Below are positions 10,011 to 57,144 of a DNA stretch of 64,000 bases, one piece after another; the stretch's first letter is position 1; every line of letters starts with the position of its first letter. Source of the stretch: Cladocopium goreaui (lineage: Eukaryota; Sar; Dinophyceae; Suessiales; Symbiodiniaceae); the NCBI GenBank assembly GCA_947184155.2, contig CAMXCT020006744.1:211857-275856 (forward strand), given 5' to 3'. The position numbers and the translations under genes were made by a program. The notes under the pieces were generated by a model, which saw only the letters and a list, made by a program, of their open reading frames with translations, was not told where the DNA came from and did no database searches.

Positions 10011-11939
10011 CTAGCTGGGCTTGTAGAACTTCTCCATGTCCTCGTTGTTCTCGATTTCCTCGGCACCATCACCCCAATCTCTTGAAGTGACAAACCTTCC
10101 CTGATTTCAGGAAGATCCATTGCCTTCAAAGTAACAGCTGCGACTGAGTTTGGCACCTTGCCCTGGAAGCCACCCACCTTGGGTGACCTGTTCTTGTCGA
10201 CTGGGATGTTGTACCTGGAGATTTTCAGGTTGTGCAAACCGGAGTAAGACCTACACCATAATGGTGAAACGAAGCTGGCCTACCCCCAGGATGGATAGAC
10301 CACCAACATCCATCAACTAGGAAAGGCATGGAAAGGCTCTGGGTTTCCAAGTTTTTGACCCCACTAGGGCCGCCCAAACTCCCATGGAGTGCTTGGTGGC
10401 AGCGTTCTTCAACACCGCACCGTAGTAGACAATGACCTCGTTGAGCCGCATCGGTCATTCAAAGGCCCCCTGGCCCTATTCAAAGGGATGCTATTCAACT
10501 TTGCAAAGGTCAGAGGCAATTTGGCTACGAACAAGCAACAAAATGCATTGAGGTAGCCCAAAATGGAAAATATTTGTCATATTTTAATTAATCTAAAATA
10601 AAAATATATATATATAAATAGATAAAAATAAATAAAACAAATAAAATAAAAAATAAAAAACATATTTTGGGGGGGGGCCGATGTTTTGCTTCCAATACTA
10701 CTTTTAGAAGGGGGCAGGGCACCCTTCTGCTCAACGACCTCCTCCCACACCTCACAACGCAGAAAAAATAGGTTTTCACAGGAAAAAAAAAACTATTTTT
10801 GGGGGGGCCAATTCCATCAATTTTAAAATACCATAAAACAAGATAAATTAAGATAATTTAGCAAAAAGACTCTGATTAGCACCCCTTTGAATAGAGCCCC
10901 AGAGATGGAGAAAGAATCGGTGGCACCATTAAGAGTCCAGACCACCAAACAACTCCCATGGATACCCAAAAAAAATGCGTCAAGGCATCAAGCTCAAAAC
11001 TGATCAAAACTGTCGCATACAATTGGCAAACCATCTTCCAAACATGTCGCCACGTGCAGCTTTTCCCTTGGCAATTTCGAGCAGGTTGGTCCGTCACATT
11101 CCGTCACGGAAGCGTTCCACTCGATCCTAAGCATCCCCACGAATCCGCAGAAGGCCCAGGCCAATGGCTCAATACCTCAAACAGGCTAGGCATCATCCCA
11201 ACCTTGTTCAATCCCCTGTTTCCCCTCGATGCTTGTGAGCACCAGTCATGAACGCAAAGAAATCGAACCCTCTCGAACTTCATTGGTCAAACTTCCTCAG
11301 CTCTACAAAGCCTTGTTGGCTCCTCATTGCAACACTCTGTTAGCAAAAATCCAGCTGTAATTACATATGTGATCTAGCATACAAGTCACTATAAACTGGG
11401 TGATCGTCATCAAACAAGTATCAGTATAAGATAGTATAAGTATCGCGAATTGTGTTAGGAGTGCGGGAGCTCGAATGGATTCGCTCTTTCTCATCCGTAT
11501 CCACCCGCGATCCCTTTGCGTGAGCACAGTTTAGTTCATCTCCCTACAGTCCACCCCTCCCAAGTTCACTCTACCAAGGCACCGTAGAAGACATCGAAAT
11601 ACTCCTTGCCTGCCAGCACGGGCTGATACAAATGTCATGCTCTCAGTTCCCCAGTAATTACAATTTGGTTCGGCTGTGTGGGGGGGTTGGATTGTCCAAA
11701 AAATCGAGCGAGAGGTAGGCTCATGGCTTGTCAGTTTCTCCTAAATTGCTGGCAAAGCTACCCTTGAAGACGAAGGCTTCCGCATTCTGTGGTGCGCCAA
11801 CAGCCATGACACCAGCTGCCGCTGCTACGGCTCCTGTGTCCATGGCACGGGCTCGGCTTTCTGGAGCTGGCACGAAGGCCATGCTGTTCAGGAGGCAGGC
11901 GACAGCCGCCAAGACGCACACAGCTGCAAGACGGGCCAT
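10011..11939 (-). CDS. small plastid thylakoid protein, tandem copy D
   Basis: Exons on the minus strand are 11939-11762, 11609-11583 (27 nt), 11175-11141, 10436-10393, 10214-10157 and 10100-10011, summing to 432 nt (143 codons plus TAG). Residues 1-21 form a signal peptide ending SMA, followed by FVPAPESRA, the F-V-P type transit motif of peridinin plastids. A second hydrophobic stretch ends AEA just before FVFKG, like a lumenal processing site. The predicted mature part of about 89 aa has one membrane helix (PLAWAFCGFVIVYYGAVL) and a charged tail ending EKFYKPS. Layout and size resemble PsbW, PsbX or CFoII-type nuclear-encoded thylakoid proteins, but I do not recognise the family. Intron 4 uses a GC donor. 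Intron 5 is only 56 nt and is inferred from a frame change. The ATG was preferred over an in-frame TTG because all copies share it. Confidence 0.82.
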
Positions 11940-12010
11940 GGTGAGGACAGGAAAAGGGCGGGACAAAGCGCGTGGCTATGTGCTGCTAGCAGCTTTCAAA
12001 AACAGCTTCG
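11940..12010 (-). promoter_or_regulatory. conserved leader upstream of copy D
   Basis: The 5' flank is conserved between tandem copies. A CCTTTTCCTGTCCTCACC stretch lies directly before the ATG, and a GCTGTTTTTGAAAGCTG-like stretch lies about 50 nt further upstream (here 11990-12006, one mismatch). The T-run followed by AG would suit a spliced-leader trans-splicing acceptor, as expected for dinoflagellate mRNAs. That role is inferred. Confidence 0.45.
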
Positions 12011-12411
12011 GAAAGTCCTTGAATCAAACAGAAATGTGTGGAGCTAGGGGACACAGGGGCAAACTAAAGATAGCTCAAGCATCCTAAATTCAGAAATTGA
12101 CAAACTCTTGTCTCTGTCCCACAATGCCCCCCTCAAACATCGTTCATGGCTTCTGAGCATCGTCACACTGCTCGCAGCATCTAACCCCTCTTTTCTTGCG
12201 CCATGTCGGCCACAGGTCACGCCACACGCGGCCTGTGAGCTCGTCCGGATTGCAATCTCCTGATCTGTTGCAGACCACCAAGGGATAGGTGACTTGGACA
12301 CCTCATGCACCCAACTAGTTCGGTCTGCATGCGAAAGACACGCTCTCCCAAGAAAAACAACGAAAACAAGTGCATCCACTTATCTCCCAGCCATGTCCAA
12401 GCCTGAGAAGC
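12011..12411. other. spacer between copies D and C
   Basis: No exon is recognised. The last 35 nt or so before copy C's stop codon (about 12376-12411) are shared with the same position downstream of copy B, and mark the edge of a homogenised tract. Confidence 0.5.
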
Positions 12412-13595
12412 TCAGCTGGGCTTGTAAAACTTCTCCATGTCCTCGTTGTTCTCGATTTCCTCGGCACCATCACCCCAATCTCTTGAAGTGACAAACCTTC
12501 CCTGATTTCAGGAAGATCCATTGCCTTCAAAGTAACAGCTGCGACTGAGTTTGGCACCTTGCCCTGGAAGCCGCCCACCTTGGGTGACCTGTTCTTGTCG
12601 ACTGGGATGTTGTACCTGCTGCCGGGACGCGGAAATGTCATCGGATCGGAATCATCCGCAAAGACTTGCATCTCCACTGCTTCCCCCCTCGAAAACCCTG
12701 AAAAAAAAACTAACTACCAACGATCTAACATAACCAAACCGAGCAAACAAAACACACACACACACCAACCAACCAAAGTGGAAAGTCGCTGCTGCCACTG
12801 AGCGGCTTGGTGGCGGCGTTCTTTAGCACAGCGCCATAGTAGACGATGACCTCAGAATCGCCAACTAAATGTCCCAAGCAGGTTTGCTTCCACATCTGGA
12901 AGGAATGCGAAAGGAAATGGGCATGGATTCTGATATATGATCATAGATCATCATAGATCATCATAGATCAAGCAATCATTGCACCCAACGACTTGCGCGC
13001 GTTCTCTCCTGGCTCCGGGTTCCCAGACGAAGCCACAGAAGGCCCATGCCAATGGTTCAATGCCTCAGTGTTTGCAGCTAGGAGCCAACGTAAAATCTGA
13101 GCGCCATCCTGATGCAGCCCAGATACCGTAGAAGACGTCGAAGTACTCCTTGCCTCGCAAGCAGAGCCGCCAAGGAATCCCGGGAGGAACTAGGTCAACA
13201 GGCTCAACACCGCAGCTATCAGAGCAATGGTGATTGGGTGGGCATGGATGGTCGTTGGCGATGTTCCATTATGCCAATACTATTCAGATACAGGTGCAGG
13301 TAATTATTTCTAAGAAAAAAATGATCACTCTGAGAACAGCAGCCGAAATGATGAGTCGATCATCTTTTTAGATATGGTGCAAAAACGTGCAAACATATTT
13401 TGTGTCGCCAAAGTTACCCTTGAAGACGAAGGCTTCCGCATTCTGTGGTGCGCCAACAGCAATGACACCAGCTGCCGCTGCCACGGCTCCTGTGTCCATG
13501 GCGCGGGCTCGGCTTTCTGGAGCTGGCATGAAGGCCATGCTGTTCAGGAGGCAGGCGACAGCCGCCAAGACGCACACAGCTGCAAGACGGGCCAT
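12412..13595 (-). CDS. small plastid thylakoid protein, tandem copy C
   Basis: Exons are 13595-13418, 13153-13127, 13063-13029, 12850-12807, 12615-12558 and 12501-12412, with the same lengths and phases as copies B and D, giving 143 aa ending in TGA. Differences from the other copies are small: FMP replaces FVP after the signal peptide, and GVIAVG replaces GVMAVG before the AEA site. From exon 2 to the stop codon, introns included, it is nearly identical to copy B, while intron 1 (264 nt) is unrelated in length. The leader directly before the ATG is kept, but the T-run further upstream is degenerate (about 13638-13660). This copy is therefore the one whose expression is least certain from sequence. 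Confidence 0.82.
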
Positions 13596-13655
13596 GGTGA
13601 GGACAGGAAAAGGGCGGGACAAAGCGCGTGGCTGCTAGCAGCTGATCAAAAATGT

Positions 13656-14297
13656 CTGCAGTGCTGCAAAGCTGGAGCTTTCGCCTTCCAGATTAGGAGA
13701 ATGTCATGCCATGGCCAAGAGTGCCAGATATATCATATATTCTTTTCTAAACGGACATTGGCAGCAAACTGCGCAATGCACAGTTTAAAGCTGGAAGGAA
13801 TATGTTGAATCGAAGAACAATTGAACCATATCGAGAGCCTCCAGTCCTAATGACCTGTCGCTGCAAAATCGCTCATTTTAAAGCGTTTTGTTGCCGTCTG
13901 TGCCACAGGTCACAGCACCTGCAGCCATTTGCAGCCATTTGCAGCTTGGCATGGTAGGGTTACAATCTAAAATTGTGGTAGTCATAGTGAAGAATCCAAA
14001 ATGAAATAGTCATGATTCATGATATTTAAAATCGCGATAGCCATGGTGGTTGCAGTGGTTGCAATGAATAATCAAAGCAATCGGACGCAGTAGAAATGAA
14101 GACAGGAATGCAACAAAGCATGTTCCTATTGACAAGCGCACGGAAGTCGCTACACTCCTCAATCAAAAGAACAAAACATTCCCTATGTCTTCTGATAGGG
14201 AAGGGGAGGGGGGCGAGGGGCTAGGAGGTAAGGATTTTTGACACTTGCCGCCACACACCATCCACTTATCTCCCAGCCATGTCCAAGCCTGAGAAGC
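13656..14297. other. spacer between copies C and B
   Basis: No exon is recognised. There are short direct repeats (GCAGCCATTT twice near 13920-13940), and the shared downstream flank of copies B and C lies at the right edge (about 14262-14297). Confidence 0.45.
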
Positions 14298-15905
14298 TCA
14301 GCTGGGCTTGTAAAACTTCTCCATGTCCTCGTTGTTCTCGATTTCCTCGGCACCATCACCCCAATCTCTTGAAGTGACAAACCTTCCCTGATTTCAGGAA
14401 GATCCATTGCCTTCAAAGTAACAGCTGCGACTGAGTTTGGCACCTTGCCCTGGAAGCCGCCCACCTTGGGTGACCTGTTCTTGTCGACTGGGATGTTGTA
14501 CCTGCTGCCGGGACGCGGAAATGTCATCGGATCGGAATCATCCGCAAAGACTTGCATCTCCACTGCTTCCCCCCTCGAAAACCCTCAAAAAAAAAACTAA
14601 CTACCAACGATCTAACATAACCAAACCGAGCAAACAAAACACACACACCAACCAACCAGTGGAAAAGTCGCTGCTGCCACTGAGCGGCTTGGTGGCGGCG
14701 TTCTTCAGCACAGCGCCATAGTAGACGATGACCTCAGAATCGCTAACTACTGTAAATGTCCCAAGCATGTTTGCTTCATTTTGCTTCCACATCTGGAAGG
14801 AATGCGAAAGGAAATGGGCATGGATTCTGATATATGATCATAGATCATCATAGATCATCATAGATCAAGCAATCATTGCACCCAACGACTTGCGCGCGTT
14901 CTCTCCTGGCTCCGGGTTCCCAGACGAAGCCACAGAAGGCCCATGCCAATGGTTCAATGCCTCAGTGTTTGCAGCTAGGAGCCAACGTAAAATCTGAGCG
15001 CCATCCTGATGCAGCCCAGATACCGTAGAAGACGTCGAAGTACTCCTTGCCTGGAAAGGGCAAGCCGGGTCGGCAATGAGCCAAACACCGCAGTAATCCA
15101 GTTGCCTATCATGGACAGGATTCTAGTGGCCAACCTCGTGCAAGTAAACAGAAAGTGGGTTCACGTGAGCAACTTGACTTCTGAACTCCTACTGTGGCAT
15201 GAAAGCATTGTCTTGCCTTGCTTTAGTGCTACAATGATCTAAAATGTATCATAACAGAAAAGCCTGAAAGCATAACCAACGGCTTGGCTTTTCTGCACCA
15301 AATCTGCCTTTAAGCAGTTTGTGATTATATTCATGGTGGTCGTCTTATTAAATTTCCGGATTGCTTATTCCACACTGCACCATCAAGTCAAGGCTATGCA
15401 AAAAAGAATGCCAGGGTGAGATGGGGCGTGCAGCTTCGGGCCTAAAACCAAATCTGGTTTGTGATTTCATGAATGTGCATGGAAGTGAAAGATGTCCATG
15501 TCTCTATTCGCCAACCAAAGTGGAAAGCATTTGCACTGATCTCTTGTTTCCGGATTTTTGATCCCCCTTACATCTGTACTGTGATATTTCCTCCTCGAAT
15601 TCTCAAAAATGGTGAGGTCGTGCAACCTCCAATAGACCACTATCCTTGGAGATTTGGAAAGATTTGGTCTTCAAACCAATTTGGCCAGAATTGCCAGTTT
15701 CAATTCTGCTGGAGGCAGCAAAGCTACCCTTGAAGACGAAGGCTTCCGCATTCTGTGGTGCGCCAACAGCCATGACACCAGCTGCCGCTGCCATGGCTCC
15801 CGTGTCCATGGCACGGGCTCGGCTTTCCGGAGCTGGCACGAAGGCCATGCTGTTCAGGAGGCAGGCGACAGCCGCCAAAACGCACACAGCTGCAAGACGG
15901 GCCAT
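14298..15905 (-). CDS. small plastid thylakoid protein, tandem copy B
   Basis: Exons are 15905-15728, 15050-15024 (27 nt), 14960-14926, 14732-14689, 14501-14444 and 14387-14298, giving 143 aa ending in TGA. The domain order is signal peptide (1-21, ending SMA), FVPAPE transit segment, a second hydrophobic stretch with an AEA site, a short KEYFDVFYG segment, one membrane helix, then a basic-to-acidic tail. Introns 2 to 5 (63, 193, 187 and 56 nt) match copy C almost base for base. Intron 1 (677 nt, 15051-15727) is the longest intron 1 of the array and holds no other recognisable feature. Intron 4 begins with GC after ACCAA. Product function is unknown; the thylakoid location is inferred from the three-part leader. 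Confidence 0.84.
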
Positions 15906-15972
15906 GGTGAGGACAGGAAAAGGACGGGGCAAAGCGCAAAGCAGCTTGCAGCTTTCAAAAACAGCTGCGGGA
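15906..15972 (-). promoter_or_regulatory. conserved leader upstream of copy B
   Basis: It shares the pyrimidine-rich stretch before the ATG and the CAGCTGTTTTTGAAAGCTG element (15950-15968) with copies A and D. This is the probable 5' UTR and candidate trans-splice acceptor region. No TATA-like element is evident. Confidence 0.45.
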
Positions 15973-16354
15973 AGAACGCTAATACATCGGAGTAAACTGA
16001 GTCACTTTGATCTGTCGCACAGCATCACACTTGTGCAAACGGAAAAGAACTGGAAATTATAGGAAATTATCTCCAGCCAACTGGTGGATGCCATGCCACT
16101 TCCATGCCTTCGTAAAACGCCAGAGGTTCTGGCCTTCAAACGTCCTAGCAGCTTCACTTGCACCAGTTTTAAAACCCCGCTGTAGTCCATCGGTCCCACA
16201 GGACGCCACTTGCGCCGTCTGTGCGGTTCTCGATCTCCTGCGGCATGCCACATCACAGCAGAATTCAATTCCTTTGACTTGAAGCCATGCTCTTGAGAAA
16301 CACTAAAGCCCGCATTTTTTGTGATGGCCCCTTGTCACCAGCCCTGGGAGCTCC
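15973..16354. other. spacer between copies B and A
   Basis: Short frames are open on both strands, but none has a domain or a convincing exon context. Confidence 0.4.
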
Positions 16355-17535
16355 TCAGCTGGGCTTGTAAAACTTCTCCATGTCCTCGCTGTTCTCGATT
16401 TCCTCGGCACCATCACCCCAATCTCTTGAAGTGACCACCTTCCCTGATTTTAGGAAGATCCATTGCCTTCAAAGTAACAGCTGCGACTGAGTTTGGCACC
16501 TTGCCCTGGAAGCCGCCCACCTTGGGTGACCTGGTCTTGTCGACTGGGATGTTGTACCTGCACGCACAAACAAACCAAGATCACGACAGGCCCGCCAAAA
16601 CAATGTCATCAGCATCATCGTCATCATCAAGAAAACCTGGATGCTCCAGTAGTGCTAGAAATACCAAATAAACCCAGTTGCTGGAATAATTTATGATGAT
16701 TCTCGGGTGATAAATCTGGTAATCATGGAAAATAAGAATCCCAGCTGTAAACCTATAGAGCTCCATTTATGGCCATGATTGCCGAAGGGTGGCTTGGTGG
16801 CAGCGTTCTTCAGCACGGCGCCGTAGTAGACGATGACGAAGCCGCAGAAGGCCCAGGCCAGTGGCTCAATGCCTCGCCACATCCAATTCTGGGACACATG
16901 ATAGTGTTCCGCCTATGGCAATGGCCCATGAGTTTCAATCAATTGCGCATCTCATACCAACCCTCATTGCCAGACAGAATGACAAGGCACCGTAGAAAAC
17001 ATCGAAGTACTCCTTGCCTTGGCAGGGTTCGTGGCTTGCAGTGATCAGTTGAGGGACCAAGGCACACGGATTACATAGGTAGAGGATCCTAACCAGCTTT
17101 GGACCAGATGTTTGATCATGCAGCGTCTACTACAGTACATACCTGTGCTTTGCCTCAATATCTCATAGGTTGCCTAAACTAATTAATCAATAAAATAATG
17201 ATCGTGTATTTGGCCACAGGTGAACACCTTGCTTATCAAACCGGCATTCTGGGGTGTTCTACATCAGCAGCAACTGATTAGGGGAAAAACCACGTGAAGA
17301 AACTGCAGGTCGCCCGCATTCAGCTACATGATTCCCGGGGTTGGCTGCCAAAGATACCCTTGAAGACGAAGGCTTCCGCATTCTGTGGTGCGCCAACAGC
17401 CATGACACCAGCTGCCGCTGCCATGGCTCCTGTGTCCATGGCACGTGCTCGGCTCTCCGGAGCTGGCACGAAGGCCATGCTGTTCAGGAGGCAGGCGACA
17501 GCCGCCAAGACGCACACAGCTGCAAGACGGGCCAT
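16355..17535 (-). CDS. small plastid thylakoid protein, tandem copy A (variant)
   Basis: Exons are 17535-17358, 17017-16991, 16872-16794 (79 nt, a fusion of exons 3 and 4), 16557-16500 and a last exon ending at 16355. Two things set it apart. First, the intron between the FCGF and VIVYYG codons is absent. Second, the last exon is one base shorter than in the other copies, which would break the frame with the usual acceptor. An AG five bases further on (intron 16439-16499, 61 nt) restores the frame and gives 141 aa ending EKFYKPS. Amino-acid changes include DKTRSP for DKNRSP and NSED for NNED. It is either a functional variant with a shifted acceptor or an early pseudogene. Leader and membrane helix are intact. 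Confidence 0.75.
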
Positions 17536-28667: not shown

Positions 28668-29384
28668 CTAGCTTGGGGGTGGGGGGGGCCCAGCTGCTTC
28701 GGGGCGAGGGTGCGCATCAGCAGGTGGGGCTGCGCCTACCGGGCTCAGGTGGCGGGGGCTACGGCTGCGATGTTTTCCTTTACCTCCTTTGTTGCCTTCC
28801 TGCGCCTTTCCTTTTCCTTTTCCTCGTCCTTTGTTGCCATCCTGTGCTTTGCTTCTGCCCTGTAAGATTGCAGGCTTTTTGTTGTCATAGCTGATGCGCT
28901 GTGGGATTTCCATCGTGCGCAGTTTTTCGCCAATGATATGGGTCAGATAATATGCCAGCTTAAGGGAGCCTTCGACATTGCGGAATATCAGTAGGTAGTT
29001 ATTTTCCCCCTTTTGGAAAATTCCAACAATATTCCTCTGTGTCAAAAACTCCACGAATTCCAGGGCCATAGGCCTCTCTCCCATTATCCATTGGCTGATC
29101 ACTGCGCTTACGCCCGCGTCTCTGCACTCACGCTCTAGCCTCTCAAATATCTCACGCGTGCCAGCTGCCATCCGCGGCGCGCTCCACTCTTGTCCCATAA
29201 CTTCAGCAAAGAAAGCCAACAGAGGAGGAATCATATCCTTCACAACGCTCTTTAGGTCATGAGCGGCTTTCAGCCTGGTGAAGATGGGCGTGAGAAAATT
29301 GAAGTTCCAGAGCATTATTTTCAGACCTTGGGTTACATAGTGCAGGTCGCGGGCGATCCGAATTATGTCCTGGCTAGGAGGCAT
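28668..29384 (-). CDS. intronless ORF of a repeated family (copy 1 of 3)
   Basis: An uninterrupted frame of 238 codons starts at MPPSQDIIRIARDLHYV. It has a helical N-terminal half (VTQGLKIMLWNF), a central stretch with VMGQEWSAPRMAAGTREIF and QWIMGERPMALEFVEFLTQ, then FRNVEGSLKLAYYLTHIIGE and ISYDNKKP. The tail is rich in Lys/Gly (GKGKGKAQEG) and Pro. Diverged relatives lie at 47.4-48.0 kb and 55.5-56.2 kb. The start was chosen because the third copy begins with the equivalent MPPTQEVIRL. The intronless state, several copies and basic tail suggest a nucleic-acid-binding protein of a retroelement (ORF1-like). That is an inference, since I recognise no known domain. It is the only copy without a lesion. 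Confidence 0.7.
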   Translation of the reverse strand: MPPSQDIIRIARDLHYVTQGLKIMLWNFNFLTPIFTRLKAAHDLKSVVKDMIPPLLAFFAEVMGQEWSAPRMAAGTREIFERLERECRDAGVSAVISQWIMGERPMALEFVEFLTQRNIVGIFQKGENNYLLIFRNVEGSLKLAYYLTHIIGEKLRTMEIPQRISYDNKKPAILQGRSKAQDGNKGRGKGKGKAQEGNKGGKGKHRSRSPRHLSPVGAAPPADAHPRPEAAGPPPPPS

Positions 29385-29479
29385 TCTCGACCTTTGTCTT
29401 CTTTTTTTTGGTGGTGGATTTTTGAATCTACGTGCAAGATCCCAAATATTGCAAAACAGAACAATCATCTACATTCAAC

Positions 29480-32400
29480 ACGCAACAGATCGAAACTAGG
29501 ACCCTTTCAGTTATTAAAAAAAGGAATCTCCACTGGCTTCCAATTCCAAACCTTTCCTCCGAGGCAAAGACGCTGCCGCAGCCCCAATCTCTTTGCTCGC
29601 TAACTGCACCTGGCATAGCGCGAGAAAGAAACAATGTGGCCAAAGCTAAACCGCCAAACACTCAGAAAAAAGGCAAAAACGAACAACAAAAACGTTTCAT
29701 ATGTGCATTAAAGAATCGAACATCGCACCCAGGTAAAACTGAGAACCCCGCTTGGCGACAAAGAAAATTAAACATCGGCTGTCTCCTGGCAATAGAAAAA
29801 ATGTCATACGGTTGGTGGCCAGAAACTTGAATATGTAAAGCAAAGTTACATCTGCACAAACCCGGCATCCTAAAGCAGAAAACAACAACAAACAGCCTAA
29901 GTTGCAGACATACTTGAGGCTTTACGGCTTTTCTTTTGAAAGCCACCTCCCAAAAGCGAAGAACCGTCTTTACTATACATATTCAAATTTATAGATATTT
30001 TTAAACATGTATATATATATAAGAATAAAGACAAATCAACACAAACAAGTTCATGAACATACAGATAAGTAGATAGATAGACAGATAAATAGAGAGATAA
30101 ACAAATTCATGAACATATAGATACGTAGATAGATAGATAGATAGATAGGTAGATAGGTAGATAGGTAGATAGGTAGATAGGTAGATAGGTAGATAGATAG
30201 AAAGATAAAGGCATGATTAACTAGAAAGTGAATGCTAGATACAAACAAGCACATCTGTAATATATCAATGCACATTGTCACCAAAGGCCTGCCAAAGCAA
30301 TCGCCGCTTCATCGCGACGATGATACCGCCTTCAAAAATGCTACAGCACACACAAACACATGCGAACGCACGCGCACACACAAACAAACGAACAACCCCC
30401 CCCAAAAAAAAAAACACTCTTTGCAAAATATGCTGCCGCCTGTTGCAGAAAACCCTTACGATGTGGCGGCGGCCCAAGGACCTCAGAAACAGATGGATGC
30501 CAAAAACAAGGCTACGGCGCAGTTAGCGACCCGGGGTAATTCATTGATTTTTCATGATGCTTCGTTCACAAAATCATGGTATTTGCAAGGTTTTGTAAAA
30601 TCGTGATAAAAACGTCAAGTCGTAGTTCCACTGGGGCCTGCTCTCAAAAGTGCGTTTCGTGTGGAACGTTAATCGATTTTCAACACGTCTGAGAAAAATT
30701 ATTGTTTTTTTTCTTCTGTTGGCCAGATTCAGTCACCTCTGTTCCACCAGTCAGTCAGCATAACTCATTTTTCAACTCACCCTTGCAAGTTGTTCAGCGT
30801 GACCCAAGTTATGCATGTGACGCAAGTTAACATGGACGTTAACATCCCCACCCCACCCCAACCCAGTGACGTGACGCAAGTTGTGCATCTGACGCAAGTT
30901 AACATGGACGTTAACCCCACCCCAACCCAACCCAACCCAGTGACGTGAACGCAAGTTTGTGCATCTGGACGCAAGTTTAACTGGACGTTAACATCCCCAC
31001 CCCAACCCAACCAGTGACGTGACGTCACGCAAGTTGTGCTCTGACTCAAGTTAACATGCCGTTAACATCGCCCACACCCACCCCAACCCAGTGCGTGACG
31101 CAGTTGGTTGCATGTGACGCACGTAACATGGACTTAACATCCCCACCCCACCCCCACCCAGTGACGTGACGCAAGTTGTGCATGTGACGCAAGTTAACAT
31201 GGACGTTAACATCCCCACCCCACCCCAACCCAGTGACGTGACGCAAGTTGTGCATGTGACGCAAGTTAACATGGACGTTAACATCCCCACCCCACCCCAA
31301 CCCAGTGACGTGACGCAAGTTGTGCATGTGACGCAAGTTCACATGGACGTTAACATCCCCACCCCACCCCAACCCAGTGACGTGACGCAAGTTGTGCATG
31401 TGACGCAAGTTAACATGGACGTTAACATCCCCACCCCACCCCAACCCAGTGACGTGACGCAAGTTGTGCATGTGACGCAAGTTCACATGGACGTTAACAT
31501 CCCCACCCCACCCCAACCCAGTGACGTGACGCAAGTTGTGCATCTGACGCAAGTTAACATGGACGTTAACATCCCCACCCCACCCCAACCCAGTGACGTG
31601 ACGCAAGTTGTGCATGTGACGCAAGTTAACATGGACGTTAACATCCCCACCCCACCCCAACCCAGTAACGTGACGCAAGTTGTGCATGTGACGCAAGTTC
31701 ACATGGACGTTAACATCCCCACCCCACCCCAGTGACGTGACGTCAGTTGTGCATGTGACGCAAGTTAACATGGACGTTAACATCCCCACCCCACCCCAAC
31801 CCAGTGACGTGACGCAAGTTGTGCATGTGACGCAAGTTAACATGGACGTTAACATCCCCACCCCACCCCCACCCAACCCACATGTGGCGTAGCATCTTCA
31901 TCACAAGAAGATGAAATTTGCATTTTGCCATCGGGTCGTAAATGGCGCCGCTGGCAAAAACAACACAATCAAAAGGTCAGCAAAAACAAAGCAACCCCCC
32001 CAAAAAAAAAAAGCAAACAAACAACTGGGAACAGCACATCCTGAGATCTCACCTTGTTGGCCCACACCACGTCTTGGGCGGTCACCTCAAAATCCTGAGC
32101 AGCAACGAGCAAGAAGAAAAGAACCCCCCCAAAAAAAAGTGCTACGGCGACTTAAAAGTATCAAACCGACTCCAAGCAAACATTAAATAATGCAAGCAAG
32201 TAACAAGGTGGCGAAAAAAATCCTCAACACCGACTGGGCCGGAAAGAGACTCCTGCGCCCAGTCGGTGTATCTCTTGGCCTTGTACCAGACCTTCGCTGG
32301 TACATGCCAGGTGGAGGCGCCATGCTGATCGACCCACCAGTCCTGCAAGCAAGGAAAAAAAACACACACCAAAGCAAAAACTACACGCGCTTGATGCAAA

Positions 32401-41884: not shown

Positions 41885-44848
41885 ATGCTTTACACACACA
41901 CAGAAGCTTTTACACACAGAAGCTTTTACACACACACACACGCTTTTCTTTTACACACACACACACATTCACACACAGAGGCTTTTACACACAGACGCTT
42001 ACACAGAGACTTTTACACACAGAAGCTTTTACATCACACACACACATACACACACACACACGCTTTTCTTGTACACACACACACACCTTCGCACACAGAG
42101 GCTTTTACACACAGACACTTACACAGAGACTTTTACACACAGACGCTTTTACACACAAACACTTTTACACAAAGACGCTTTTACACACAGAAGCTTTTCC
42201 ACACAGACTCCTTTACACACAGACGCTTTTACACACAGAAGTTTTTACACACAGGCACTTTTTTACACAGACGCTTTTAGACACAGAAGCTTTTACACAG
42301 AGACTTTTACACACAGACGCTTTTACACGCAAACACTTTTACACACAGAGCTTTTACACACAGAAGCTTTTACACACAGACTCCTTTACACACAGACGCT
42401 TTTACACACAGAGAGCTTTTACACACAGACGCTTTTACACACAAACACTTTCACACACAGAGGCTTTTACACACAGAAGCTTTTACACACAGAGGCTTTT
42501 ACACACAGAAGCTTTTAGACACAGGCGCTTTTACACACAGACGCTTTTACACACAGACGCTTTTACACACAGACACTTTTACACACACGCTTTTACACAG
42601 ACGCTTTTACACACAGACGATTTTACACACAGACGCTTTTACACACAGACGCTTTTACACACAGACGCTTTTTGCACACAGACGCTTTTACACACACACA
42701 CTTACATACACACACACTCTTTCACACACAGAGGCTATTACACAGACGCTTTTACACACAGACGCTTTTGCACACAGACACTTTTACACAGTCACTTTTA
42801 CACACAAACACTTTTACACAAACGCTTTTACACACAGACGCTTTTACACACAGACATTTTTACACACAGACTCCTTTACACACAGACGCTTTTACACACA
42901 GACGCTTTTGCACACAGGCACTTTTACACAGTCACTTTTACACACAAACACTTTTACACAAACGCTTTTACACACAGACGCTTTTACACACAGAAGCTTT
43001 TACACACAGACACTTTTACACACAGACGCTCTTACACACAGAAGCTTTTACACAGAGACTTTTACACACAGGCACTTTTACCCACAGAAGCTTTTACACA
43101 CACACGCACACACACACACACACTCTTTTCTTTTACACACACACAGAGGCTTTTACACACAGACGCTTGCCCAGAGACTTTTACACACAGACGCTTTTGC
43201 ACACAAACACTTTCACACACAGAGGCTTTTACACACAGAAGCCTTTACACAGAGACTCCTTTACACACAGACGCTTTTACACACAGAAGCTGGTACACAC
43301 AGAAGCTTTTACACCCAGACGCTTTTACACACAGACACTCTTACACACAGACGTTTTTACACACAAACGCTTTTACACACAGACACTTTTACACACAGAC
43401 ACTTTTACACACAGACTCCTTTACACACAGAGGCTTTTACACACGGAAACTTTTACACACAGACGCTTTTACACACAGGCACTTTTACACAAAGAGGCTT
43501 TTACACACAGACGCTTTTACACACAGACACTTTTACACACACGCTTTTACACAGACGCTTTTACACACAGACGCTTTTACACACAGACGCTTTTACACAC
43601 AGACGCTTTTACACACAGACCCTTTTACACACAGACGCTTTTACACACAACCGCTTTTACACACGGCACTTTTACACACAGACACTTTTACACACAGACG
43701 CTTTTACACACAGACGCTTTTACACACAGACGCTTTTACACACAGACGCTTTTACACACAGACCCTTTTTCACACAAACACTTTCACACACAGAAGTGTT
43801 TACACACAGACACTTTTACACGCAGACGCTTTTACACACAAAAGCTTTTACACACAAAGGCTTTTACACACAGACATTTTTACACACAGACGCTTTTACA
43901 CAGAGGCTTTTACACAGAGGCTTTTACACACAGACGCTTTTACACACAGACGCTTTTACACACAGATGCTTCTACACGCAGACGCTTTTACACGCAGATG
44001 CGTTTTACACACGCACACACGCTTTCACACACAAACGCTTTTACACACAGACGCGTTTACACACAGACGCTTCTACACGCAGACGCTTTTACACGCAGAT
44101 GCTTTTACACGCAGATGCGTTTTACACACGCACACACGCTTTCACACACAAACGCTTTTACACACAGACGCGTTTACACACAGACGCTTCTACAGGCAGA
44201 CGCTTTTACACGCAGATGCGTTTTACACACGCACACACGCTTTCACACACAAACACTTTTACACACAGACGCGTTTTCTACACACAGACGCTTTTACACG
44301 CAGAAGCTTTTTACACACGCACACACACTTTCACACACAAACGCTTTTACACACAGACGCTTTTACACACAGACGCTTTTACACACGGACGCTTTTACAC
44401 ACAAAAGCTTTTACACACAAAGGCTTTTACACACAGACGGTTTTACACACAGACGCTTTTACACTCAGACGCTTTTACACGCAGATGCGTTTTACACACG
44501 CACAAACGCTTTTACACACAGTCGCTTTTACACACAGACGCTTTTACACACAGACGCTTTTACACACAGACGCTTTTACACACAAAAGCTCTTACACACA
44601 AAGGCTTTTACACACAGACGGTTTTACACACAGACGCTTTTACACGCAGACGCTTTTACACGCAGATTCGTTTTACACACGCACGCACGCTTTCACACAC
44701 AAACGCTTTTACACACAGACGCGTTTACACACAGACGCTTTTACACACAGACGCTTTTACACGCAGATGCTTTTTACACACGCACACACGCTTTCACACA
44801 CAAACGCTTTTACACACAGACGCTTTTACACACAGACACTTGTACAGA
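41885..44848. repeat. 16-bp minisatellite, main block, roughly 180 units
   Basis: TTTTACACACAGACGC units with variants (GAAGC, GAGGC, AAACAC) are tandemly repeated for almost 3 kb, with CA-rich insertions near 41925, 42040, 42700 and 43105. The unit is not divisible by three and has no stop in any plus-strand frame, so plus frames stay open for hundreds of codons (up to 752 and 682) with the same 16-residue period (FYTQTLLHTDAFTHRR). I do not call these proteins. Confidence 0.97.
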
Positions 44849-44859
44849 AACGAAAGCGT

Positions 44860-45490
44860 CCATCGCAATTTTTCCGCAGTTTTTGACGTCCAACGTCCAT
44901 TTCGTGCGTGGGTTACGATTGACCAAGTAAAATCGCAATTTTTCCTCAGTTTTTGACGTCCAACGTCCATTTCGTGCGTGGGTTGCGATTGACAACTCAA
45001 AGTCGCAATTTTACCTAGGTTTTTGACGTCCAACGTCCATTTCGTGCGTAAGGGTTGCGATTGACACCTCAAAGTCGCAATTTTTCCTCAGTTTTTGACG
45101 TCCAACGTCCATTTCGTGCGTAAGGGTTGCGATTGACACCTCAAAGTCGCAATTTTTCTTCAGTTTTTGACGTCCAACGTCCATTTCGTGCGAAAGGGTT
45201 GCCGGGGACGCTTCAAAGTCGCAATTTTTCCTCAGTTTTTAACGTCCAACGTCCATTTCGTGCGAAAGGGTTGCGCGCGACCAATAAAAGTTGCAATTTT
45301 TCCTCAGTTTTTGACGTCCAACGTCCATTTCGTGCAAAAGGGTTGCGCGCGACCAATAAAAGTTGCAATTTTTCCTCAGTTTTTGGCGTCCAACGTCCAT
45401 TTCGTGCGAAAGGGTTGCCGGCGACGCTTCAAAATCGCATTTTTACCTAGGTTTTGGACGTCCAACGTCCATTTCGTGCGAAAGGGTTGC
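44860..45490. repeat. 70-72-bp tandem repeat, 9 copies
   Basis: Units share GCAATTTTTCCTCAG, TTTTTGACGTCCAACGTCC and ATTTCGTGCG, with starts of the TTTTGACG motif at 44881, 44951, 45021, 45093, 45165, 45237, 45309, 45381 and 45452. The first two steps are 70 bp, the rest 72 or 71. The array abuts the 16-bp array directly. Confidence 0.95.
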
Positions 45491-45554
45491 GTTTCGTGGC
45501 GCTCCGGCGGCACCGCCCCCGCCTTAAGAGAGAATAGAAGAAGAGCGAGAGGAG

Positions 45555-53680: not shown

Positions 53681-55140
53681 TTAACATTGTCTTGGTTTTC
53701 ACTATATTTTTAAAGCATTTTTAGTTATAACATTTTCCTAGGTTTTCACTGTATTTTTCTAACATGTTACATGCCTCCTAGCATGTTCACGCGTGTCCTC
53801 CATGTTGTACTGTTTTCTACATCGTTTCCTCTAGTTGTTACAAGCATTTCCTAGCTTGTACACCGTTTCCTAATATTGTCACAACTTTTCTTCCAGTTTC
53901 CACTGCTTTTTCTACCGTTTCCTGTGGTTACTTTCTTCTCTTTTGTAGGTTTTCACTGTGTTTTGTCCAGCTTTTTTTATTACATGCTTCCTACCATTTT
54001 CACCGCTTTCCTCTATGGCTTTTTGTACCATTTCCTCTCGTTTCCTGCATTTCATGCATTTTCAATATATTTTTCCAAGAGTTTTACCCGTCTCCTTCAG
54101 TTTCCGATCGTTTTTGCACCATTTCCTCTGGTTGTTATCGCATTTTCCTGCACTTTCACTGTCTTTTTCCAACATGTTTACTGCATCGTCATAGTTTGTT
54201 CCTAGCAGCCACTCCGGCTTCCTCCATGTTCCAACAGATTTTGCATGGTTTGTTCCTAGCATTTTCCTCTGATCGTTATCATGTTTTCCTCAAGTTTCAT
54301 TGTATTTTCCAATACATCCTCTTCGTGGGTTTTCAATATGTTTTGTCCAGCATTTTTTTACTACATGTTTCCTATCATTTTCACCTCTTTCCTCCATAGG
54401 TTTTTGCACCATTTCCTCTGGCTTCCTGCATTTTCATACCTTTTCAATATTAATATTAATCCAAGAGTTTTACCTGTCTCCTTCATTTTCCGATCCTTTT
54501 TGCACCATTTCGTCTCGTTGTTATCACATTTTCCTGCACTTTCACTGTATTTTTCCAGCATGTTTACTGTATCGTCATGGTTTGCGCCTAGCATTCGCTC
54601 CGGTTTCCTCCATGTTCCAACAGATTTTGCATGGTTTGTTCCTAGCATTTTCCTCTGATCGTTATCATGTTTTCCTCAAGTTTCATTGTATTTTCCAATA
54701 CATCCTCTTCGTGGGCTTTCAATATGTTTTGTCCAGCATTTTTTTACTACATGTTTCCTATCATTTTCACCTCTTTCCTCCATAGGTTTTTGCACCATTT
54801 CCTCTGGTTTCCTGCATTTTCATACCTTTTCAATATTAATATTAATCCAAGAGTTTTACCTGTCTCCTTCATTCTCCGATCGTTTTTGCACCATTTCCTC
54901 TCGTTGTTATCGCATTTTCCTGCACTTTCACTGTATTTTTCCAGCATGTTTACTGCATCGTCATAGTTTGTTCCTAGCAGTCGCTCCGGTTTCCTCCATT
55001 TTCCAAGGGATTTTCCATGGTTTGTTCCTCGCATTCGCTCCGTTTTCGTCCGTTTTCCAGGGGATTTTGTACGATTTCCTCTGATCGTTATCATGTTCTC
55101 CTGCAGTTTCATTGTATTTTCCAATACATCCTCATGGTCT
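53680..55140. repeat. T/C-rich repeat region with 386-bp duplication
   Basis: The segment starting CAGATTTTGCATGGTTTG at 54235 recurs at 54621, exactly 386 bp later, and the two copies are almost identical for their whole length. An older, more diverged unit lies at about 53870-54235 and a partial one after 55007. Within units, short words (TTTCCTC, CATTTTC) recur every 15-30 bp. The Phe/Ser-rich plus frames are artefacts. Confidence 0.9.
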
Positions 55141-55525: not shown

Positions 55526-56246
55526 CTAACTTTGCCATATATATAACCCAGCTGTGAGGGTGGCTACTTGTGGCCGATTCGTCTGACGTCTGTTGTTTTG
55601 TTTTGTTGTGTCGCGTTTTGAGCCGCTATTCTTGTGCACTTGTTGCAAAGCTGTAATTTGATGCGTCTGTTCAGGACGCTTTCTGTCTGAGCTTGCTGCC
55701 GTTGGGCCCGGCTGCTGCTGCGGCTGTTTATTGTCATAGCTGATCCGGTAGGGGATCTCGAGGGCCTCGAGGGTGCGGACTTTTCCACCGATGACCGCTG
55801 TCATATAGTACGCCAACTTGAGTGATCCCTCCACATTCCTGAAAGTAATCTGATAGTTGTGCTCTCCCTTTCGGAAGATGCCTGATATTCCGCTGTGTGA
55901 AGACTTCCGGGAAATAAACGCCATCGGAGTTTGTCACATTAAGCACACTTTTGCTGATACAGGGCCCTACCCAGCGTCGCAAAGTTCCCTTTCCAAACGT
56001 TCGAAAAAATCCACTGTGCCCGGTGACATTCGAGAGCGCTCCATGCAGGTCCCACCGTTTCCGCAACAAAATAAAGGGCGTCGTTTCCTTAACTGCGGCC
56101 TCCTTGACTTGTTGGCTTCCTTCAACCGGTTGCAGGTGGGCGTTAAATGGCGTTAAGAATGTGAACTGCCAGAGCATTACCCGAAGTCCCTGGGACAAGT
56201 GATGGACGCCTTTCGTCAAGCGAATGACCTCTTGGGTAGGAGGCAT
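55526..56246 (-). pseudogene. repeated ORF family, copy 3 (frameshifted)
   Basis: It starts MPPTQEVIRLTKGVHHLSQG at 56246, aligning with the start of copy 1 (MPPSQDIIRIARDLHYVTQG), then RVMLWQFTFLTPF against KIMLWNFNFLTPI. After frame changes between about 56090 and 55900 the match resumes with FRKGEHNYQITFRNVEGSLK, TAVIGGKVRTLEALEIPYRI and SYDNKQPQQQPG. Two or more indels break the frame, so it is a pseudogene unless splicing removes them. The tail differs from copy 1, being Gln/Thr-rich. Confidence 0.7.
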
Positions 56247-57144
56247 GATTCCGGATAGCTTAAAGCTCTTTTTTATGCCCTTCTCTTTCTGGGCGGGTTG
56301 CGGGTTCTGAGCCAATCTGCGGGCCAGGAGAGTGAGCCGTAAGCAGGTATGTGTTCGAGGTACCGGAAAGAGGTGGGGGGGGGGGGGAGGAGCATGTGGC
56401 AGAGCAGTGGCAGAGTGAATCGAGCGTAGATGTGTGTCCGTGTGTGCACAAGAAACTTGCAAGCTGTGCTGCCGCCAAAGAATGCTTCCGCCAAAAAAAA
56501 GCTTTGGGGTCGCCAGAGGATGTCAGGTGCCAAAGAACACCTCCCCCATGCATGTTGTGCGATGTGCGCGTGGCGGAGGGATTGTCACTACATTGTACTG
56601 GCATGTGTGATTTGAGAAGGCGCATGACGCTTGATTATCCTTAGGTGACAAAGATTCAAAAAGAATAGACATCGGTTAGCGAATGGGAAATAGGAGGTGT
56701 ATCAGCATCCTATTGCGATTGACAGAAAGTAAAAGAAAATCGACATGAGGAAAGGATGTCGGCGTGAGGGAAGGAACGCACATGTTCAGCGATATGTGGT
56801 GTGTGGGAAAAAGTGTGCGCATGCATCGCGCAGCCGTCAAAGAACGGCTCAGGGGGCGCCAGAGAACGTCAGGTGCCAGAGAACACCTCCCCTTCAGGTG
56901 ATTTCCTCTTGGCGTCCTAGAAACCATGGTTGTGTCGTGTCTTTTTGTAACCCCAAAAACATCAGTGGCAATCTGCTGAGAAGGGTGGCTACTTCGGTCC
57001 AGTTTACCGGAGTGCCCTCGGCTGTGGTGTATTGGACAATTGTATCGTGATACTTTTGGCGCAGAGCCCTGTCGCTGGGCGCACAGGGAGGGGTCTACTT
57101 TGATATCCTTTGAGCGGTGCTAATTTCCTAGCTAATTAAATAAG
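56247..57144. other. spacer between element remnants
   Basis: A G-run lies at about 56374-56387. Two similar words (GTCAGGTGCCAAAGAACACC at about 56521 and GTCAGGTGCCAGAGAACACC at about 56869) mark an imperfect direct repeat about 348 bp apart. No gene is recognised. Confidence 0.45.

Follow-up and report, generated by a model that had tools for sequence, protein, structure and literature searches.

A tandem array of four Cladocopium goreaui genes for a putative one-helix thylakoid protein of dinoflagellates

We analyzed a 64,000-nt stretch of DNA (the window) from Cladocopium goreaui, an alga that is probably a coral symbiont, and found, on the minus strand from 17535 to 10011, four copies of one gene in a single orientation. 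The genes are real, and their spliced reading frames are under purifying selection. We propose, with a probability of about 0.6, that these four nuclear genes encode one low-mass dinoflagellate membrane protein that serves as a structural subunit of a thylakoid complex outside the modelled photosystem I (PSI) core. The thylakoid location is predicted; membership in a complex is what we infer from sequence, with the leader, the predicted topology, the enrichment of photosynthesis functions among tandem genes and the multi-copy state of psb genes together favoring this reading.

Four spliced genes in one array

We placed the gene boundaries by comparison with P0001, an annotated relative from C. 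goreaui whose 74 mature residues are all identical to those of copies 2, 3, and 4. Each array copy has an open 390-nt CDS for a 129-residue precursor (Table 1), and neighboring copies are spaced 449, 702, and 472 nt from stop to ATG. Over a 225-nt 5' block, the other three copies are 95–98% identical to the reference copy. Across all six copy pairs, dN is 0.005–0.017 against a dS of 0.06–0.25, indicating purifying selection and bearing out the initial annotation, which had called four real genes in the same orientation. A tblastn search of the 64-kb window yielded no convincing further array copy (next best E 0.23).

Table 1. Positions of the array genes, the leader exon, and intron 5
Feature	Position	Strand	Exons or segments	Remarks
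Copy 1	16355..17535	-	17535-17358, 17017-16991, 16872-16794 (exons 3 and 4 joined, intron 3 missing), 16557-16500, 16402-16355	ATG at 17535; stop TGA
Copy 2	14298..15905	-	15905-15728, 15050-15024, 14960-14926, 14732-14689, 14501-14444, 14345-14298	ATG at 15905; stop TGA
Copy 3	12412..13595	-	13595-13418, 13153-13127, 13063-13029, 12850-12807, 12615-12558, 12459-12412	ATG at 13595; stop TGA
Copy 4	10011..11939	-	11939-11762, 11609-11583, 11175-11141, 10436-10393, 10214-10157, 10058-10011	ATG at 11939; stop TAG
Exon 1 of copy 1	17358..17535	-		length 178 nt in all copies; codes for residues 1-55 (entire predicted targeting leader) and the first 4 mature residues
Intron 5	16403..16499 (copy 1)	-	14346-14443, 12460-12557, 10059-10156 (copies 2-4)	97 nt in copy 1; 98 nt in copies 2-4

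The exons measure 178, 27, 35, 44, 58, and 48 nt, with phases of 1, 1, 0, 2, and 0 calculated from these lengths. An earlier claim of constant exon lengths holds for the first five exons of copies 2–4 and fails for copy 1, where exons 3 and 4 are fused; the claim that splice phases agree stands for every intron present. Intron 3 is missing from copy 1 only (junction 16838/16837) and spans 193, 178, and 704 nt in copies 2–4; either copy 1 lost it precisely, or the ancestor of copies 2–4 gained it. In all four copies, intron 4 is of the GC-AG type. Both P0001 and the transcript-derived relative P0008 join ...GFQGK straight to EIENNEDMEKFYK, so exon 6 is 48 nt rather than the 84–90 nt first assigned to it; copies 2–4 encode EIENNEDMEKFYKPS here, and copy 1 encodes EIENSEDMEKFYKPS. 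The corrected exon 5–6 junction is supported by the transcript-derived relatives P0008, P0012, and P0014, which pass directly from GF(Q/V)GK to E(I/V)EN. Under the corrected model, the one-base deletion that makes copy 1 1 nt shorter lies inside intron 5. The database frame of P0045 runs through intron 5 in frame and reaches the same C-terminus, which leads us to consider that this intron may be retained in some copies. Exon 1 takes in just four residues of the mature protein and codes almost exactly for the targeting leader, so it can be called a leader exon.

Intron 5 is 97.9–100% identical between copies, with the other introns diverged in most pairs. Copies 2, 3, and 4 carry the same intron 5, from which copy 1 departs by two substitutions and the deletion. 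For four of the six pairs, synonymous divergence predicts about 15–21 differences where 0 or 2 are observed (binomial P 2e-5 to 6e-11). The simplest cause is gene conversion of the exon 5–6 block, since exons 5 and 6 are also little diverged. A constrained RNA element may instead lie behind the conservation, but neither an Rfam family nor notable folding backs it: no known RNA family was detected within the 64-kb window at Rfam gathering scores, and the folding energy of the intron is unremarkable (z -1.47 and -0.80). Its best blastn match in the window outside the array covers 24 nt at 87.5% identity (1391–1414, E 0.004). From exon 2 onward, copies 2 and 3 differ at a single one of 212 exon bases and share introns 2–5 at 98.9–100% identity, whereas their exon 1 differs at 7 of 178 bases and their intron 1 is only 73.9% identical. 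The array is thus a mosaic, and identity of the mature protein between copies could partly reflect gene conversion.

Elsewhere in the window, two minus-strand ORFs at 28668–29468 and 55734–56522 are related to one another (28% identity over 123 columns, E 6e-15), lack a Pfam match, and perhaps represent a second, dispersed gene family; 8 of the 32 long ORFs in the window were compared with Pfam, with no match at E 0.1. A 16-bp minisatellite at 41896–44846 (about 183 copies, consensus ACACACAGACGCTTTT) has all three plus-strand frames open along most of the array and is probably non-coding. Further long tandem arrays occupy 30798–31875 (72-bp unit), 44863–45491 (72-bp), and 53948–55035 (386-bp).

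Protein anatomy and predicted targeting

The precursor comprises a signal peptide, an F-[VLI] motif, an A-x-A site, a short predicted lumenal segment, one helix, and a basic, predicted stromal side. Counted from A-E-A, the mature part has 74 residues, shorter than the roughly 89 initially estimated. All 73 full-length members have A-x-A immediately ahead of the mature F, against 11% of shuffled leaders; 70 of the 73 have F-[VLI] at residues 13–45, against 16%. The three exceptions, P0043, P0075, and P0141, all have longer N-termini. The leader layout initially described for the array proteins, like their single helix, is kept among the relatives. The second hydrophobic stretch is weak, with a Kyte-Doolittle maximum of 1.38 over 19 residues, and the thylakoid step is therefore less certain than the signal peptide.

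AlphaFold2 modeling of P0001 gave a mean pLDDT of 69.9 and a pTM of 0.36 overall, with one block at pLDDT 86–95 that forms a helix at residues 72–96, the single predicted membrane span of the short mature chain. The model also has strands at 56–58 and 61–63 and, less certainly, helices at 2–22 and 35–48. Net charge, compared by position, is higher on the C-terminal side than on the other side in 109 of 110 members (mean +3.1 vs -1.5), P0047 alone lacking the difference; this count took 110 of 149 ids, leaving out 27 without GKE and 12 that were too short. Alignments of 23, 25, and 62 sequences share a near-invariant core of A-F, G-K-E-Y-F-D, G-I-x-P-L-x-W, G-A, K-N, and K-Y-N. The lumenal segment and helix are strongly conserved, and the tail varies in length and sequence. 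The three Skav paralogues have all 73 mature residues in common but agree at only 32, 29, and 43 of 53 leader positions, a pattern pointing to selection or conversion that works on the mature part separately from the leader.

From this anatomy, the precursor would enter the ER through its signal peptide, and reach the complex plastid by way of the short F-V-P transit segment, after which the second hydrophobic stretch, rich in alanine, would direct it to the thylakoid. Cleavage after A-x-A would yield a mature chain of about 74 residues. Its short lumenal segment, FVFKGKEYFDVFYG, is predicted to form a hairpin and would be followed by one membrane helix at about residues 72–96 and by a stromal tail of about 33 residues, basic in its first part.

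Family distribution and searches for a known identity

Protein-database searches returned 55 proteins at E up to 1, 125 at E up to 1, and 130 at E up to 10, the second having scored the 7998 best candidates. Among the matches listed (the best 120 of 125 and 120 of 130 for the latter two), there are at least 149 distinct ids, of which some represent mispredicted intron frames and 117 contain the core GKEY. An organism name accompanies 24 of the 149: 23 are dinoflagellates (Cladocopium, Symbiodinium, Durusdinium, Effrenium, Polarella, Prorocentrum, Alexandrium, Pyrodinium, Gambierdiscus, and Zooxanthella), and the last stems from transcriptome data of Sorites, a foraminifer that hosts dinoflagellate symbionts. 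We take the prefixes Skav and symbB to denote Fugacium and Breviolum. None of the 24 named matches among the 149 ids supports a source outside dinoflagellates, so the suggestion that the protein is dinoflagellate-specific agrees with every organism name. Two peptide patterns per collection, close to the Symbiodiniaceae sequence such that distant relatives could escape them, produced 141 and 182 matches in prokaryote genomes and a viral collection, of which tblastn confirmed 0. Judged by these sequences, the family is conserved across dinoflagellate orders. A divergent second subfamily (P0120, P0147, P0148, and P0149; core GYGPLPWAVAAITLISFGAQLLKTVKKYQPPPP) is possibly a paralogous subunit.

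The initial annotation had recognized no known photosystem or cytochrome subunit in the protein, and it matches none by Pfam, NCBIfam, the PDB, or comparison with small-subunit sequences. No Pfam or NCBIfam family scored better than E 0.02: a single protein gave one weak Pfam match (E 0.079), 23 members gave nine Pfam families (best E 0.021), and 25 members gave three NCBIfam families (best E 0.15), with the F0F1 ATP synthase B' model at E 0.16 in one member. Searches of the PDB with the single protein and three profiles (E up to 10) found no significant match to the mature part, and a Foldseek search of the P0001 model against the PDB found no match. We judged the remaining PDB hits to be chance or leader similarity: the light-harvesting chains cac-b (E 0.59) and ACPI-b (E 5.4) and PsaM (1.4) in the single-protein search, each with its best stretch in the leader, and PsaM (E 0.14) and seminal plasma PSP-II (1.4) in a profile search. 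A deltarhodopsin helix hit by two mature profiles (E 0.2 and 0.027, the latter over 22 residues) was judged likewise. Chlorophyll binding by HLIP/OHP one-helix light-harvesting-like proteins uses an E-x-x-N/H-x-R motif in the helix; helix 72–96 of the four array proteins contains neither E nor R, and the motif is missing from the invariant columns, so this identity was rejected.

The Symbiodinium PSI structure 8jjr was in the library searched, providing the comparison with dinoflagellate photosystem chains that had been suggested at the outset. The one match to its PSI chains falls in the leader of PsaM (E 1.4 and 0.14), the mature profiles retrieve no PSI chain, and the mature region matches no 8jjr chain at E up to 10. 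The family protein is thus not among the modelled chains of 8jjr. The PsaM leader alignment is weak and not significant at E 0.14; it is a hint that a proven PSI subunit may use a similar type of presequence.

Could the protein be a known low-mass subunit, such as PetN, PetM, PsbW, PsbX, or PsbY, diverged past recognition after nuclear transfer? Its size class and one-helix layout are alike, and plastid-transferred genes are described as very diverged in Symbiodinium minutum in passages of PMC4079212. Comparison with 21 sequences from 18 small photosystem and b6f subunit families produced nothing clearly above chance. The two highest scores belong to b6f subunits, plant PetN at 2.9 bits (8 of 300 shuffles scored as high) and PetM at 1.1 bits (7 of 300), but such ranks are expected by chance in 21 tests, and cyanobacterial PetN reached only 0.4 bits (56 of 300). 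PetN ends in a C-terminal W-G-R; the mature part here lacks this motif and is over twice as long. Together with the absence of a Pfam or NCBIfam match, these points make a diverged known subunit unlikely. The PsbW, PsbX, and PsbY type is alike in small size, single helix, predicted lumenal N-terminus, cleavable thylakoid-transfer segment, and nuclear gene; the array family differs in having no sequence match to the families tested, a longer predicted stromal tail, and organism names restricted to dinoflagellates and one host.

A candidate subunit of a thylakoid complex

If the protein is a structural subunit, candidate complexes are photosystem II (PSII), cytochrome b6f, or ATP synthase, in which the conserved W, G-A, K-N, and K-Y positions would anchor it. 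Tandem multiplication would raise transcript dose, as for photosynthesis genes in Cladocopium. Passages of PMC9412976 describe C. goreaui tandem repeated genes as enriched in 'chloroplast thylakoid membrane', 'photosystem I reaction center', and 'photosystem II', and passages of PMC4079212 describe psbH, psbL, and psbM as multi-copy in Symbiodinium minutum. There is precedent for lineage-specific subunits in PsaT and PsaU of Symbiodinium PSI (8jjr; PMC10944487). A more specific proposal, which we hold tentatively and with somewhat less than even odds, is that the protein is a previously unnamed, constitutive, dinoflagellate-wide subunit of PSII or cytochrome b6f that replaced small subunits lost as the plastid genome shrank to minicircles.

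Thylakoid assembly, repair, and stress factors can also be small one-helix proteins, a conserved membrane protein of this size could just as well serve assembly or regulation, and a tail that varies in length and sequence is what a flexible adaptor could have. We consider such a factor rather improbable, less likely than a stoichiometric subunit and slightly less likely than a diverged known one: the strongly conserved lumenal segment and helix, and a multi-copy array suited to an abundant protein, both weigh against it, neither decisively. Residence in another plastid compartment (the inner envelope or an outer membrane) is very improbable; the weak second hydrophobic segment and the predicted nature of the thylakoid targeting would allow it, but the A-x-A ahead of the mature start in every full-length member is what thylakoid processing predicts.

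Dinoflagellates feed corals, and their plastid genomes are extremely reduced. Little is known about how their PSII, b6f, and ATP synthase complexes are composed, and the best literature matches included no publication on a dinoflagellate PSII or b6f structure. Like the dinoflagellate 'dark' genes of PMC6249206, the family is conserved in several dinoflagellates and has no recognised relatives; it differs from those genes in that its targeting anatomy is clear and its site of action can be tested. This conserved, uncharacterised one-helix protein carries an explicit signature, F-V-[FY]-x-G-K-E-Y-F-D ahead of a W-containing helix, that can be searched for in maps and proteomes of PSII, b6f, and ATP synthase. 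Its leader-only first exon suggests a route by which a targeting sequence may evolve separately from its cargo, and the family may be an overlooked part of the dinoflagellate photosynthetic machinery.
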